Origin: Stephanodiscus triporus
Lineage: Eukaryota; Bacillariophyta; Thalassiosirophyceae; Thalassiosirales; Thalassiosiraceae
Reading direction: 5' to 3'
Assembly (NCBI GenBank): GCA_036939755.1
Contig: JALLAZ010000668.1
Coordinates: forward strand, 1 to 12,994
DNA length: 12,994 nt
The notes below the pieces were generated by a model. It saw only the letters and a program-made list of their open reading frames with translations, did no database searches and was not told the DNA's origin. Within the stretch, counting starts at the first letter, position 1. Every line of letters begins with the position of its first letter. Both the position numbers and the translations under genes were made by a program. Shown here in pieces: positions 3,337 to 11,281 of the stretch.

Positions 3337-6300
3337 ATGCCCCGAGTCCATGGCATCGAAATCGTGCCAAGACGCGGCAGAGGTCGTGGTCGACAGCTTC
3401 CATCAGTTGCTGCAATCGGTGGCGTTGGCGGCAGCGGCGCTAATTCTTGTGTCGCCGAAAGTGCTTCAACCGGTGACGGTGACGGTGGCGGTGGCGGTGG
3501 CGGTAGGGGTGGCGGTGGCGGCAGATTTCGCTTCGCTACGGACATATTGCATGCTTCGCTATCCCAATATCCTGCGGGGGGGGTGAATGATGAAATCCAC
3601 TGCATGTCATTGGAAGGGGGAGGAAGAAATGGGTCTTCCCGTTACAACTACGGCGACGTCACATCGCCGGCGGCTGCATCTCCTCGCGAGCCGGAATCAG
3701 TCGGAAAAGCGAAGGAACGAACGATGCCTCCGGAACAAACTCGCGAGGCAAAACATGTGGCAATCACAGCAGATGGAATGAGCATCCGACCTCAAGCCAG
3801 AGAAATCCTAAACCACATCGAATTCGGCTCGCATTCGTTTTCAGTCCAAGAAATATCCCGCAAGACTTCTCCGGTATTTGATTCGGGTACTTCACGGCTT
3901 GGATGGATAGGATTTGAACAATCTTCGGAATTGAAATTGATTGGTGAAATGCCGCCAACGTTGTCGGCAAAAAAATTTGCAGAAACTACCGCCCAGTTGA
4001 TGACGAGCAAAGACGACGAAGCGAAAGAGGCAAGACCTCTCGAGGAATTGGAGGAAGTCGCGACGAAAGATGGACAACCAGGCCCGACACCTTTGCAGCG
4101 AGTCCATGCCAGTCAATTGCATGCATCGAAAACTGATAAAACGATGATCAACAAGGGCAATGATGCGCAAGTGGAGCTACCGAAGTCACCCGGAAGAGGA
4201 CATTGTACGGACAAACATCATCATCCTGCAGCAACTTCCATCTACGATTGCAATGCCTATTGGCTCTATCAACGTTGTTCTGCAGCTTGCATACAAATGG
4301 AAACTCCTCTCTCGCCCTTGGAACTTTCGATTGAGATTTTGCGTTTTGTACGATCATCCGTTGAAGATGACGACAAGTTTGAATGGAAACTTTCTTGTAA
4401 ATTATTCGATGTGATGAAGTCTGGGAAAAGGAGGGATTTGGATTTGATATACGATGTGACCGAGAGGGTGCCCGACTTGAGGGAGGACACGACATTGGAC
4501 GAAAGTAGTATACAGGAAGTTGCCACATTTGTTGGGGGGCTAACTAATACTAATAAAGCAAACGAGGGCAACTCTGTTGACAAGGGGGGAAATGGCCACC
4601 ACGCGCCCATCACTGAGCCCATTGAGCCATCGACGGTCGAAAATATTTTCAGAAAATCACTCGACAATATCCCGTTACACAAAGAGCGACAGGAAGACTC
4701 TCCCAGGAAAATGCATCGCTCGCGGCGGAAAAAACATCCTTCTACTCAGAATACTTCCATTGCCATCAATACGACGCTTGGGGGTGAGGTGTCCTCGCAT
4801 ACTCATGCAAATAATCTGACTGACAAGAAAGTACCATCCGCGGAGACCAACAAAGACGCAAATGAAGTAATACATGCTGATTTCCCAAAAATGAAGGATA
4901 TTTTGGATGTGCAAGACGATGAGAAATGGTCGTTTTTGCCCTCTTCTCAACAGCAGTCCATCGGAGAGAGTAACGAAGACATGGACCAACTGTCTCGGCG
5001 TGTTACTCGATCGATGGGTGTTGCTGTTGGTGACGACATTTATGTAGCAGATAATGTTGAGGTGCATTTACCGATAAACGAAATATCCTTAGAGCTCAGC
5101 GGAATGGACGGTGAGGCCGAGATGACAGAATACAGTAATGACGAAAAAGATCGAGCTACATATAAAAATAACGAGATCTCCTTTGTTGAACGCGCCGAGG
5201 AAAAACAAGTTAACGGTTTTAATGCAAAAGATGAGATTGGTTTAATGCAAAGAAAAGATCGCCGTTCTCAAGGCGAGGCAATTGTTGCAATTTCGTCATG
5301 TGCTATTGAACATGAAAGTGAAAAACCCCAAGCGTCCGATGTATATGATGACGTGCACAATACACCTCGAGGCGCCGAAGAGCCGAAAATTGATTGCAAA
5401 GAGGTTTTCACCTTGGTCAAAACGAGGAAACGCTGCGAAGGAAAGGACACTGTTAGAGTCATATTCACTGGCTTCACGGCGACGCGCCGGCATATGCAGG
5501 TGCGTTGATGTTTGCACATTCGCGCTGACATTTTGCCATTCATTCTGATGTATTTGATTATTCTTTCGTATCTCTGTATCTCTTAGATGATTGAAACAAT
5601 TGGTGCAGAGTATGTAGAATCAATCGAAGAGGCGCACACGGCTACTCACGTCATAGCCACTGATGGCGTGACGGCGTTGAGACGAACGCCGAAGCTGATG
5701 ATATGTATTTGCAGAGTCGCTAACATATTAAGTATAGAATGGCTCGAGCAATCATCAAAAGAACAACGCATCCTGGATACACATGATTTTCTTCTGCTCG
5801 GTGACAGAGAAGCGGAGAAAAGGTATGACTTTTCAATGAAAGAGACAATACGAAACGGAATACAGGCTAGAAAGAGAAGAGGTGGCGTCCTTGGTGGTTG
5901 GTTTGTCTATATTTGCTCAGGTGTTGCGGGAAACAGGGCACCAAATATGAAGGAGATGCAGCTCATCATCGAGGCAGGTGGAGGACAAGTGTTGAAATCA
6001 TTGTCCAACATGAATTCTTTCGATCCTCTCAAAACGATAGTGCTCACTAGTGAGCCAAGTACACAGTCTCAACTGAAAGAGCAAGGAGTCGCGAAGGTTG
6101 AACGTCTTGGGGCGAAAATTTTGTCGACGTCATGGCTCTTTCACACTATTATCACACAAAAAAATGTTAATATTGATAGCGAAGATGAATCCGATCCAGC
6201 GAATGATGGGTCACAATCTTCTCGTTTAGTAAGGAGCAACTCTCATGGATTACTGGAATCACCCATACCTGGCCTGTCAGTGTCACCAGAAAATACGGTT

Positions 6301-8649
6301 GCCTTAAGAAGCTCACCACCAACGAACATTATTGACGAACAAGCAACCATTGTCAGACTTAATGATGTCACTCCAGTCCGGATTCGAGGCTCAAGTGTAA
6401 CCCACTTACAGTGTGCGCCTCCTTCGTCACCGAGGCTCAAGAAGCGGGAACTCAACATTCTGCCTCCTCAAGAGTTCTCGAAACTGGCCACGAGCCGAAG
6501 GCATGTGTACTCTCATAATATGATGGTGTTATTAGAGGCTATTTCAGTATCAGACGACATGGCTGCTGCAAAGACGCGTAAACTGTGGTTAGATTTTTTT
6601 AATAGGGGCGGCAAAGATGCAAGTACGACACCTGCAAATCGTCCAAAGAGAGGCGTTCGTTGTTTGCGCGGTCGCAAGCGCTCCATAAGTCCATTAGTGA
6701 CGTCGACTAACCCAATCCGTATGAAGGCACCAACTGATGCGAAGAATGCGAAAGCGAAGCCTATTTTTGTTTCTGACCATGAGCGGCTAATATTCGAAGA
6801 CAATCCTTTCGTGACGTGGGAGGCATACGTACTATTCATCCTCGGGTTGCGCGCAGAGAAATTGGTAATTCATCAGTCTTCGACCTCAGCCACAATCGTG
6901 CCAGCTTGCAGTTTCTTTCCTCGTCCTGTTGCGATCAATAGTGACGAGAGCATGAAACAAGGCAACTACCATGACCAGGCCTTGTTCTCCAACAAGTTAT
7001 CGCTGAAAGTAGATGCACAACAATTTGTTGAAGACGAATCGTGGGAAATATTTGGATCTTTGCAAGATGTATTCTCTCTTCACCAGCAGTACCAAACTTC
7101 AGGAATGATTCCAGAGCAAGTCGTGGCGCTATTGTCACTGAAAGCAATTGAGGCTTTAGCTGCCATGCATTCTTGCGGCATTGTGCACAATGATATCGGC
7201 TTAGATTCGTTTTTGTTGGTGAAGAGATCAAACCCATCAAGCAGCAAAAAAGAAATTAAGCACGACAGCGAAAGTGAGATTGGCTCATGGTTCTTACAGG
7301 TGACAGGCTTCGGAAACAAGGCAGTTGTGCTCGACTGTCGTGCAAAGCACGACGATAGTGACTATGCACATGATTATCAATGTCTTGCTAATGTAATTCA
7401 CCTCTTTCTCACTGGAGGTGTCGAGATAAGTTTGAATACATCAAGAAGCGGATTAGTTGAATTCACGTCGAAGGTCTTTATCAAGGGCAATTTGTTCCTG
7501 CGTGGGGCTTTATCATGGTGCTCACTGATCGACGCGCTGATGTGTGTCGGCGAGCTGACACCAGGCTGCGACGAGAGTGAAGGTCATTTCAGACTGAAGT
7601 ACCCTGTCAACGTCTCAAACCTCACGGCATCTGATGATGGAGGAGACTGCCGCATGAATCAATTCTTATGGTCTTGCCGCATACTGCAAGATTTGTCGGA
7701 TGGTCGAAAACTTGATGATTTCATGAATGGGCTCACCTCGTATAATTCTCGATTTATCTTTCAAGATACAAAGTTGTCATCTTACGTGTGCAATACACAT
7801 GATGGCCGCCAATCATTTGCATGCTATACATCAAATACACAAACAGTTCACCATTTGATGGAGAGAGAATGTAAACTTCAAACAGGAACTTTGGCATTGG
7901 TGCAGCGCGAGGCAGAACTACTTGATAAAGTTGCGCAGTTCGAAAAGTCGAAGTTGGAGCATCAGTCAATTTTGAAGAAGATGGAGAGTGAATATCGAAT
8001 GAAAGAAAGCGAACTTCTTAAGAGAGAGAAGGCGCACATTCAAGAAGTTCAGTGGCTTGAGACTAAGAAAGAAGACTTAAATCTCAGACAACTTCGCCTC
8101 GATCAAAGATTGCTTTTGGCGAGAGATGGCATTTCCAAGGACTCGTCAGCACCGCCGAGAGCCACCGCGATGTTGAAGGAACAGGTTCATTTGGATAGTT
8201 CCCTCGGAAACGAGACATATTCTCCTGCGGAAAGTCAGTTATTAGCTGGAGAAGAAACATTGAAGGAAAGCAATCCCAGTCCCAGATCCACTGACTCTCT
8301 CCCATATCAGTATGCTCAGAGCGGGGAGTCTTTCCTGTCCCCCCATGATGCCGCGAGGCACAAACGAAAGAAGAACGTTGATATCCAGTCCCTCTCTCAG
8401 AACCAATCTCATGGTGACGGCGATGCATCCCAATATGACGAGGATTGTCATGGAGAAAGCCAAGAGTACCACGAGAGCGCTAGCAGCATGAAAAAACGCA
8501 AGAAGGGATGCGTACGGAAATCACCAAAATGTTCGCTACACAACTTGCCATTATCCCCAACTCGAAAAAAACAAACCCCAAAAAGGTCTTCATCGATCTT
8601 GGATTCTTTTGATATCCTACCAGTCTATCACAGTGTTTTACTCCCTTGA
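3337..8649 (+). CDS. Tandem-BRCT protein fused to a BUB1-like pseudokinase domain
   Basis: Exons 3337-5499 and 5587-8649; spliced product about 1741 residues. Residues 1-700 look largely disordered: an Arg/Gly-rich start, a Gly run at about 49-63, a more helical patch at about 305-405, and RRVTRSMG at about 554. BRCT1 spans about 705-790 (VRVIFTGF, then LRRTPK and ILSIEWLEQS) and BRCT2 about 823-915 (GGWFVYICSGV, ending ILSTSWLF), in the order and spacing of the MDC1/PTIP C-terminus. After an S/P-rich and basic linker, residues about 1190-1440 resemble the BUB1/BUBR1 kinase C-lobe: GSLQDVF, MHSCGIVHNDIGLDSFLL, GFG in place of DFG, then HDYQCLANVIHLFLTGG. A coiled coil (about 1479-1566) and a basic Ser/Pro tail with KKRKK-type nuclear signals follow. 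The expected site is the nucleus or chromatin. A TAG six bases before the ATG fixes the start unless an upstream exon exists. BRCT assignment is strong, BUB1 kinship moderate; the function as a whole is not known. Confidence 0.85.
3481..3523 (+). repeat. (GGTGGC)n repeat coding for a poly-Gly tract
   Basis: An imperfect GGTGGC run, interrupted by GGTAGGGGT, encodes the Gly/Arg-Gly-rich stretch near the N-terminus of the BRCT/BUB1-like protein (about residues 49-63). RG-rich tracts often bind nucleic acid, but a simple repeat expansion explains it equally well. Confidence 0.85.
5500..5586 (+). other. Intron splitting BRCT1 (87 nt, phase 0, in-frame TGA)
   Basis: The donor is CAG|GTGCGT at 5499/5500 and the acceptor is a pyrimidine-rich TATCTCTTAG ending at 5586. 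Splicing joins VIFTGFTATRRHMQ to MIETIGAEYVESIEEAHT, a canonical BRCT beta1-alpha1-beta2 segment. Unspliced, the frame stops at TGA 5506-5508, and the downstream exon happens to begin with ATG, so the locus can be mistaken for two tandem genes. Confidence 0.92.
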
Positions 8650-8828: not shown

Positions 8829-10541
8829 TTAGTCATACATGTCATCGTCTCCTCCTTCATCATCTCCGCCCATATCGTCATCCCCATCCATTCCGCCGAA
8901 ACCACCGAACGCCCCGAATCCCCCATCCATTAATAAATTTGCCGCCAACGCCTCATTCTTGTCACATGCCAAATACGCCTGAGCCGCCTCTGTCCTGTCG
9001 AATCCCATCTCCGTCAAGCGATCAACTGCTGCCATTTCCTCCTCCGACAAACGCAGGACTTGAGCTCCTCCCATACCGCCTCTTCCGGCACCAGCGGCAC
9101 CGCCCATCAAGCCTCCGAGTCCCTGCGCCTGCATGGCCATATTCATATGTTGTTGGACCTGTTCGGGGGGCATGGCGCTGATCATCTGCGCCAGCTGTTG
9201 CAGCTGGTTGACGTCCATGCCCATCATTTGTGCCATAGCCTGCTGTTCCTGGGGGGGCATGGCCTGGAGCATTTGGGCCAATTGGACGGGGTTACCCAGG
9301 GCGTCCATTCCGGGTACGCCTGCAAACGGATTGGCAGCAGCTCGTACTGCTGGTTGAGCTGGAGCAGCCGGAGCGGCGGGTGCATCGGCCACCGGCTCAT
9401 TCATCATTTCAAGGAAGGCGGCCTGGTTGGAATTTATGGCCAGGAGAAGTTCGGGTTGCTGTTGACCGATCTGGGAGAGTACGGCCTGGAGCATGCTGGG
9501 GTTGGACTGAACGAGACGTCTTAGTGCATCGAACTGTGGATGACTCCGCAATGCTTCCAACGGCCCTGCACTCCCCGACGACCCCCCCTCTGCCGAGCTA
9601 GATGCCTCAGCTGAAGGAGCATCCCCGCCCTCCATCTCCGGAGGAATGCCATTCATCAAAAACTCTACGGCGATATCAGGATTACCATCCGAGGCACGAA
9701 GGCAGGCCCTAACGGACGATTCTGGGAATCCAAGTGCTATGAGATTGTTGACAACTTCCGCAGGGAACTCGTCAGGGGAGCTTATGTCAGATGCAGCAAC
9801 CGCAGCAGCAGGTGTTGCGGCAGCGGCGGCAGTCGCGGTTGACGCAGCAGGCGCTGAAGGTGTAGGAGGGACGACAGCGGTGGCTGCCGGCGTCGTTGGT
9901 GCAACCGCAGTGGCCTCTGCAGCCGCAGGAGCAGCAGCCTCAGCAGGTTTCGCTGCCGGAGCTTTTTTGGCCTTGCAAGACAATTAGGCATTTGTAAAAC
10001 AAATACTATAAACTACCGATTCCACGTTTATCATGAAAGGCTGAAGGGCAAAATACAGACATAAACTCTTACCTTAGCAATCATCACCACCAGAAAATCG
10101 TTCGGTTTGATATTACAACTATCAATAATATCATCATCCTTCAAGACTTTGCCCGAATGGATCAATTTCATGCCTTCTGCAGGAAGCTCCGACTTCGCAG
10201 CTTCCTGAGTATATTCGTGATGGAAGGAGAAGGGTGGGATATTTTTGGACATGATTGCACAAGAGCAACAACAGTTTGGACGAGGTGACATCCCCGACAA
10301 ATGACATGAAAAGAAACGATAATGTTATTCACAGGCGCATCGCATATTTTAGAACATTATTCGAGCCGCTGCCCCCTTCCAGACCCAACAACCGATATGC
10401 GGCAGTGACCCACCACCTCGATCCCACCAGAAAACCATGTTAACAACTCACGATGACGGTCTTGACTTGCGCAACGGTATTCGACGGATCCACTTCGATG
10501 GTAAATTTCCCCCCTTTGAGGGTCTTTACTGTTAGATTCAT
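8829..10541 (-). CDS. RAD23: RAD23 UBL-UBA ubiquitin receptor, three exons
   Basis: Exons on the minus strand: 10541-10452, 10204-10073 and 9971-8829, all phase 0, giving about 454 residues. RAD23 carries polyubiquitinated proteins to the proteasome and, with XPC, acts in nucleotide excision repair. The ubiquitin-like domain is residues 1-74 (MNLTVKTLKGGKFTIEVDPS, then EGMKLIHSGKVLKDDD and NDFLVVMIAK). An Ala/Pro linker follows, then UBA1 at about 142-183 (VVNNLIALGF), the XPC-binding/STI1 domain at about 211-266 (LEALRSHPQFDALRRLVQSN), a Met/Gln-rich insert at about 295-360, UBA2 at about 382-422 (AVDRLTEMGFDRTEAAQAYL), and a Gly/Asp tail ending DDDMYD. Family members are usually about 360-400 residues and end at UBA2, so the insert and tail are extra. 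Both splice junctions rebuild a continuous ubiquitin fold (VKTVI-EAAKSELP and MIAK-AKKAPA). The first ATG is preceded by ACCGCC, a good context. Confidence 0.95.
9972..10072 (-). other. RAD23 intron 2 (101 nt)
   Basis: On the minus strand the donor is AAG|GTAAGA (exon ends at 10073) and the acceptor is TTGCAAG (exon resumes at 9971). It is phase 0 and lies at the border between the ubiquitin-like domain and the Ala/Pro linker. Confidence 0.88.
10205..10451 (-). other. RAD23 intron 1 (247 nt)
   Basis: On the minus strand the donor is GTGAGT (exon ends at 10452). The acceptor is a pyrimidine tract, CCCTTCTCCTTCC, followed by ATACTCAG ending at 10205. It is phase 0 and splits the ubiquitin fold after VKTVI. 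An ORF with its own ATG runs through this intron into exon 2, but splicing at this acceptor matches the spacing of plant RAD23 to within one residue. Confidence 0.88.
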
Positions 10542-10849
10542 GGCGGTTGTTGTTCAAATGATGATGGGAACCTAAGTGGCGATGCTACCCAAGTTTGCCG
10601 TAACTACGTACGATACCACATTATTTCGTGGAATGAGGCCGAACCTGGTCGAACTGAGGCGAATTTTCTCCCCAGGTACTTAAGTGCGGTGTTGGACTTT
10701 ATCGTAAATAATTTGTGGGGGTAAATATTATACTCCTATGGTGATAAAAGGCGCTGTGGTGTGTCGTCTGAGTATTATTTCATTCAACCCTCTAATGAAC
10801 AGCAGAGTGTGGCGGTGACTTTTCTACGATCGCTACCACCCCCCAGTCT
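10542..10849. promoter_or_regulatory. Probable bidirectional promoter between RAD23 and ATG12
   Basis: About 308 bases lie between the divergent start codons and must hold the 5' UTRs and promoters of both genes. The palindrome TACGTA is at 10605-10610, and an AT-rich patch with TAAATATTA lies around 10722-10731. Neither was shown to be functional. A shared promoter is inferred from spacing alone. Confidence 0.5.
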
Positions 10850-11281
10850 ATGAGCGCAGCGATGAATGATACAGAGAAATCTGCAGCGTCGGCGGAAGAA
10901 ACGAGCAGAGACATAGATGCGGACGGAAAGATTGATCAATCTTTCGACGATGTCAAAGACGTACCCCAAGAGTCTCTCCAACGCAAGACGAAATCGGAAA
11001 AGGTCAAAGTTCACCTGGTTGCGGTCGGGAGCTCGCCCATTCTCAAGAAGTCGAAATTCTTAATGAATGCCGACGATCGCTTCGCGGTAGCAATAGCATT
11101 TCTTAGAAAGGTGCTGAAGCTGTCCTCTGGGACCAATGCGGCGACTGCGAGCTCTTTGTTCTTGTACGTCAATGCGGCATTCGTACCATCGCCGGAGGAA
11201 CGAATAGGGGATTTGTTCGATTGTTTCGGGACCAGAGGGGAGTTAATCGTACATTACAGCTTGCAGGAGGCTTGGGGGTAG
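10850..11281 (+). CDS. ATG12: ATG12, ubiquitin-like autophagy conjugation protein
   Basis: Intronless, 143 residues. ATG12 is activated by ATG7, passed to ATG10 and attached through its C-terminal Gly to a Lys of ATG5; with ATG16 the conjugate promotes ATG8 lipidation on the growing autophagosome. Residues 1-50 are a charged, Ser/Asp-rich, probably flexible extension. Residues 51-143 are the ubiquitin-like fold: KVKVHLVAVGSSPILKKSKF, then LFLYVNAAFVPSPEERIGDL, then CFGTRGELIVHY. The chain ends exactly at AWG, the mature family C-terminus, so no processing protease is needed. The conserved core motifs (YVN.aF.PSP, CFG, QEAWG) are all present. A second Met at residue 5 could also serve as start. 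The gene is divergent from RAD23, another ubiquitin-fold gene, but the two act in separate degradation routes. Confidence 0.96.
   Translation: MSAAMNDTEKSAASAEETSRDIDADGKIDQSFDDVKDVPQESLQRKTKSEKVKVHLVAVGSSPILKKSKFLMNADDRFAVAIAFLRKVLKLSSGTNAATASSLFLYVNAAFVPSPEERIGDLFDCFGTRGELIVHYSLQEAWG

Follow-up and report, generated by a model that had tools for sequence, protein, structure and literature searches.

The locus examined here, on contig JALLAZ010000668.1 of Stephanodiscus triporus, raises the question whether one gene can carry both a tandem BRCT module and a kinase-like domain of the BUB1/BUBR1 type, as an earlier sequence-only reading had proposed. The analysed window comprises the whole stretch of 12,994 nucleotides. 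It was read on both strands, and the joining of two exons resulted in a protein of 1741 residues by translation. Sequence and structure models together make it very probable that an N-terminal module, a tandem BRCT, a dead BUB1/BUBR1-type domain, a long helix and a tail are encoded in one gene, whose features are located as follows:

3337..5499, + strand: exon 1, start codon ATG at 3337, residues 1-721, mostly without recognised domains (translation, in-phase join)
4261..4536, + strand: conserved N-terminal module, residues about 309-400, WLYxRC...GKRRDLxxVFxV (alignment of 12 sequences)
5458..5820, + strand: BRCT1, starting in exon 1 (VIFTG, from 5458), interrupted by the intron and ending in exon 2
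5500..5586, + strand: intron of 87 bases, GT..AG, phase 0
5587..8649, + strand: exon 2, 1020 stop-free codons, stop codon at 8647-8649
5890..6174, + strand: BRCT2 (Pfam BRCT_2 2e-9, BRCT 9e-6)
6469..6612, + strand: helical stretch, mapped from its counterpart in the relative P0018, which aligns with the N-terminal extension of the BUB1 kinase
6802..7761, + strand: predicted BUB1/BUBR1-type pseudokinase from the C-helix on, residues about 1127-1446
7840..8130, + strand: predicted long single helix, mapped from P0018 (774-875; predicted local distance difference test score, pLDDT, 77-89 over 781-870)
8440..8649, + strand: C-terminal tail, which in relatives mostly ends in a PKKVFI(D/N)xx-like motif

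Exon 1 contains the N-terminal module and the first strand of BRCT1, and the exon join is matched in relatives with both sides in one protein (TRRHMQ-MIETIGAE in P0014, THRHRQ-MVETIGAQ in P0007). The Pfam search of exon 2 revealed the two BRCT matches, which exceed the cut-off, and a Pkinase match (0.0025), which is weak and falls below it; the sole match in exon 1 was a DUF family at 0.058. Translation bore out the claim that 5587-8649 is one open exon with most of BRCT1, all of BRCT2 and the kinase-like domain, and the landmarks named for the latter are present, namely GSLQDVF, MHSCGIVHNDIGLDSFLL, TGFG at the place of DFG, and HDYQCLANVIHLFLTGG. The motif order of this part is that of BUB1/BUBR1.

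A search with exon 2 identified at least 53 related proteins; for this and for the search from P0029 described below, only the 8000 candidates with the most shared words were scored, and a wider spread is possible. The kinase-like part is kept in 36 of the 53 relatives, and in 35 of these 36 at least part of the BRCT pair lies in the same frame. The exception, P0033 from Thalassiosira sp. AJA248-18, is a fragment of 562 residues. The records of six of the 36 name a species (Skeletonema dohrnii, S. marinoi, Cyclotella cf. meneghiniana, C. atomus, C. cryptica and Thalassiosira sp. AJA248-18), and some of these carriers are laboratory diatoms. Both C. cryptica and S. marinoi are classified in the Thalassiosirales, and the named carriers of the fusion so far are thalassiosiroid diatoms. 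Median identity, based on 20 to 24 of 24 relatives per part, is 74% for BRCT1 and 62% for BRCT2; the halves of the kinase-like domain have 47% and 51%, and the linkers 30% and 35%. Since both parts share a frame in 35 of 36 relatives and conservation is higher in the folded parts than in the linkers, the fusion is more than a chance adjacency.

Among the remaining relatives, 15 (P0037-P0051) carry the BRCT pair toward the C-terminus without a kinase-like part and two more end inside the BRCT pair. C. cryptica has both forms (fusion P0025, BRCT-only P0049). A BRCT tree of 42 rows was calculated from the window, 26 of the 36 fusions and the 15 BRCT-only proteins, leaving out 12 of the 53 relatives with a shorter or no BRCT match. 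It contains three changes between the fusion and BRCT-only labels, which rejects a division into two clades and allows for one fusion followed by losses as well as for several origins. The search from P0029, the most divergent member, resulted in 15 proteins, all of them fusions within the known set. The BRCT pair of P0046, a record filed as Alexandrium tamarense, is nearly identical to that of fusion P0016; P0046 is probably a truncated diatom record, its sequence suggesting contamination.

In a phmmer comparison with PDB sequences the BRCT part matched PTIP best (4.3e-9), followed by MDC1 (1.5e-8). BRCT1 corresponds to the Pfam family RTT107_BRCT_5, which scored 18.5 bits for exon 2 alone, 24.2 for P0007 and 23.4 for P0029, under 27, and 28.5 for P0017, over this value. 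MDC1 also carries an N-terminal FHA domain; no FHA match was obtained in exon 1 at E <= 1 (Pfam). A second such BRCT pair was not found in the own, perhaps incomplete assembly with the exon-2 BRCT and the BRCT-only protein P0045 as queries. The two repeats lie in tandem, as in MDC1-type readers, and the phosphate-pocket residues T711 (5467-5469), placed by the motif VIFTG, and R753, R754 and K757 of the stretch RRTPK 753-757 (5680-5694), placed by the phmmer alignment, fall at the positions of MDC1 T1898, R1932, R1933 and K1936. RRTPK occurs in the same place in 25 of the 36 relatives; in the remaining 11 the record is missing this stretch or misreads it. MDC1 is reported to contact gammaH2AX with T1898 and K1936 at the phosphate, with R1932 at the +2 residue and with R1933 at the +3 carboxylate (PMC4013092). 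Because the pocket residues of MDC1 have counterparts in the window, the BRCT pair looks capable of phosphate binding. The interpretation given in the earlier reading is supported in part; docking of the pair on a phosphoserine mark would be a further step.

The kinase-like domain was compared in the window and its 36 relatives. None of these 37 fusion domains has the DFG Asp, the catalytic-loop Lys or the catalytic-loop Asn, and the position of the HRD Asp is occupied by D in 25, N in 7 and E in 5. The window itself reads HND at 1255 and TGFG instead of DFG. The set of HRD Asp, catalytic Lys, Asn and DFG Asp of an active kinase is therefore not present in the fusion domains; all four residues are invariant in 46 BUB1-family domains. 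The tested glycines of the Gly loop and the beta3 Lys are likewise invariant in 43 of these 46, those that cover them. In the fusions no counterpart of the Gly loop or the beta3 Lys could be assigned; the profile match starts at the C-helix and the stretch upstream has low model confidence. Only 2 of the 37 domain sequences contain GxGxxG, which in P0011 lies close to the C-terminus. A stretch LSLKV considered as beta3 with its Lys was dropped, as the profile alignment places it past the C-helix and pairs it with the BUB1 strand that precedes the TLxDV segment. The activation segment is nearly absent in the profile comparison with BUB1. Judged by these residues, the domain cannot be an ordinary kinase, in agreement with the pseudokinase status assigned before.

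The assignment to BUB1/BUBR1 comes from fold and profile comparisons. The structure models of the window and of P0018 were both found closest to BUB1/BUBR1 by two fold programs, the C-terminal (pseudo)kinase of BUB1/BUBR1 (PDB 4qpm, 5dmz, 6f7b, 4r8q, 6jkk) being the best structural match of both. The P0018 model aligns from 310-317 with human BUB1 from 733-739, and the other listed kinases start at 326 or later; the model thus predicts a helical N-terminal extension ahead of the kinase domain, as in the BUB1 family. For the whole-length model no BRCT entries were among the 50 structure matches listed, a list that one domain can fill. For the profile comparison, the 37 fusion domains were aligned by hhalign with 46 BUB1 kinase domains, consisting of the BUB1-type protein (MADBUB) of the own genome and 45 of 59 retrieved proteins. 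This resulted in a score of 95.2 (E 1.4e-12), and the 202 aligned columns extend from the C-helix up to the last helices. As a control, nine kinases of the own genome, aligned with each in turn as master, reached at most 79.0 over 67-103 columns (best 8 of 9). With the catalytic loop excluded, BUB1 scored 28.5 and the own kinases at most 17.5 (best 8 of 9 masters), indicating a relationship to the BUB1 family past the general catalytic loop. The N-terminal half alone scored 28.5 against BUB1, and 20 column-shuffles of the whole profile reached 20.6. A BUB1 hidden Markov model (HMM) recovered all 37 fusion domains at E <= 1.5e-4.

Based on these results, a mechanism with about even chances of being correct is that the protein serves thalassiosiroid diatoms as an adaptor linking a phosphoserine mark to a mitotic partner via the dead BUB1-type platform. 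The BRCT pair would dock the protein on the mark, either an H2A-type phosphorylated SQE tail or a mitotic phosphoprotein. The dead domain may act as a binding platform by analogy to the BUBR1 pseudokinase, which is reported to bind CENP-E (PMC7473641, PMC12429063). The long helix, according to the model probably a coiled coil, may dimerise the protein. A spindle or kinetochore partner would thereby be brought to marked chromatin, or marked chromatin to the partner, with no phosphotransfer by the fusion protein. A more specific version, in which the BRCT pair reads phosphorylated chromatin at break sites and the platform draws spindle or kinetochore partners or holds broken chromosomes, is rather doubtful. 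In mitosis, CIP2A-TOPBP1 is described as being recruited to breaks via MDC1 (PMC9288427). If this version is true, the fusion would be a one-protein answer to the animals' MDC1-TOPBP1-CIP2A plus BUB proteins, arisen once or more in thalassiosiroid diatoms.

Several observations weigh against this interpretation. For the window model, the first non-BUB1 entry in Foldseek, MSK1 (4.8e-4), stands right behind the fifth BUB1 entry (4.6e-4), and six of the 11 matches at E <= 0.001 are non-BUB1 kinase chains. The two models were built on a shared alignment and are hence not independent, and BRCT1 in the second model has mostly pLDDT < 50. The C-terminal half of the profile alone scored 22.4 at a shuffle maximum of 20.6, a modest signal outside the catalytic loop. 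Among reading frames from 30 own kinase loci, MADBUB ranked 4th by the fusion HMM and 10th of 134 by hhalign, and phmmer of the kinase-like part against PDB gave only weak matches (PAK4 0.018, a BUB1/BUBR1 chain 0.14). The tetratricopeptide repeat (TPR) domain Mad3_BUB1_I was matched by neither exon at E <= 1, and the window protein showed no KEN box and no ABBA pattern. On the side of the mark, the own canonical H2A leaves the contig end before its tail, so that an SQE tail is not visible, and the own H2A.Z-like histone has no SQ/SQE tail. No H2A SQ tail was found among the histone matches, of which 12 of 17 were resolved to loci and nine stretches extended, a control pattern matching equally often.

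The chief rival, possible although it is not the explanation we favour, is a protein confined to DNA-damage mediation: it would resemble MDC1, with its BUB1-derived pseudokinase recruited as a scaffold for repair factors and no link to spindle or kinetochore. It agrees with PTIP and MDC1 as the nearest BRCT sequences in PDB, with the existence of BRCT-only relatives, including P0049 next to P0025 in C. cryptica, and with the missing TPR, KEN and ABBA matches in the window protein. However, the BUB1-type domain is under constraint, which suggests a retained BUB1-type surface, and in fission yeast the MDC1 homologue Mdb1 is reported to perform both jobs, binding gammaH2A and reaching the spindle midzone by means of its phospho-binding residues (PMC4013092).

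An origin of the domain in a different kinase family, with a superficial likeness to BUB1, is improbable. The scores of single sequences are not BUB1-specific, and beyond rank 5 the Foldseek list of the window model leaves BUB1 a thin margin. But the other kinases that rank better in single-sequence searches do so through short matches around the catalytic loop; this shared loop dominates the ranking, which therefore does not separate BUB1 from other kinases, whereas BUB1 is indicated by the two structure models, by both fold programs and by the profile comparison. The BUB1/BUBR1 assignment of the sequence-only reading holds for fold and profile, and the single-sequence searches do not decide it.

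A divergent BUBR1/MAD3-like component aiding assembly of the mitotic checkpoint complex is very unlikely. Its dead kinase fold is of the BUBR1 type, and MADBUB duplications are reported elsewhere among stramenopiles (Albuginaceae, Ectocarpus, Aureococcus), in a study that names neither diatoms nor Thalassiosira in its main text (PMC5204127). However, with no TPR match and no KEN or ABBA pattern, the window protein fails to show what marks a MAD3/BUBR1-type checkpoint protein, and among the long fusion members a KEN box occurs in one of eight and the ABBA pattern in none of eight. These features are present in the canonical MADBUB of the same genome, found by the one Mad3_BUB1_I match (6e-24):

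L004 1095-2471, 2566-4593, 4669-5211 (G000:C724): canonical MADBUB, three exons joined to 1315 residues

This protein has the TPR domain (Mad3_BUB1_I), two KEN boxes (at 15 and 359) and six matches to the ABBA pattern, and its kinase motifs are intact (GRGVYG, HCDVKPDN, VDFG). Replacement of BUB1 by the fusion, left open before, was thereby rejected, and the fusion adds to a normal BUB1 in the genome.

Two genes joined through assembly or gene-model error are hardly conceivable, and an artefact was rejected: the reading rests on genomic sequence and many relatives are unnamed records, but both parts share one frame in 35 of the 36 kinase-bearing relatives, including named Skeletonema and Cyclotella records, and lie within one stop-free exon in the window.

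Outside the BRCT and pseudokinase parts, residues 141-420 are similar in 11 of 16 relatives compared. The N-terminal module, present in these 11 relatives, is not contained in the BRCT-only proteins P0043, P0044, P0045 and P0047, and had no Pfam match (window, P0007, P0017, P0029) and no PDB sequence match. A degenerate BUB1 TPR was rejected for it, the hhalign score of 13.0 lying within the 7.7-17.7 of eight shuffles; we presume a resemblance to the N-terminal parts of ASCC3/BRR2-type helicases. At the other end, the PKKVFI(D/N)xx-like ending was matched by regular expression in 24 of 36 relatives and, in our assumption, resembles a SUMO-interacting motif. The window frame leaves this motif near 8583 and continues for about 20 codons, which fits a length difference of one base in an A-run, either from assembly or real. 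The window contains three further genes:

227-2791, + strand: WD40-repeat gene (Pfam beta-propeller matches only, all under the cut-off), presumably resembling a dynein intermediate chain
8829-9983, - strand: XPC-binding domain (2.3e-21) and two UBA stretches (Pfam), convergent neighbour of the fusion gene, which we take to encode a RAD23-like protein
10799-11281, + strand: ATG12-type ubiquitin-like autophagy protein (Pfam APG12 1.4e-26)

Compared with known systems, the fusion shares the phosphate and carboxylate pocket residues in the same places with MDC1/Mdb1, in which, according to PMC4013092, the BRCT pair is C-terminal, whereas in the fusion the pseudokinase and the long helix follow it. 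The kinetoplastid kinetochore protein KKT14 is a divergent Bub1-like pseudokinase, with BRCT unmentioned in the main text of PMC11286163; unlike there, the fusion's genome also has a MADBUB. Human BUBR1 and the fusion domain are both catalytically dead. In contrast to BUB1/BUBR1, the fusion has no TPR, KEN or ABBA found, is joined to a tandem BRCT, has a reduced N-lobe and almost no activation segment, and coexists with MADBUB. PTIP (PAXIP1), whose tandem BRCT (3sqd) is the best PDB sequence match of the fusion BRCT, has further BRCT domains and no kinase-like domain. A BRCT-BUB1 fusion was not found in the literature among open-licence papers, searched mostly by title and start of the abstract, in line with the earlier statement that the architecture is undescribed. 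To our knowledge, it would be, after kinetoplastid KKT14, the second protist example in which a Bub1-type pseudokinase was recognised chiefly from its fold. The novelty appears to be a BUB1-type pseudokinase in a new architecture, each module being already known. The fusion hints at joint working of a DNA-damage-type phospho-reader and a BUB1-type pseudokinase with ordinary BUB1 retained alongside, and raises the question whether one molecule may wire damaged chromatin to the mitotic spindle.

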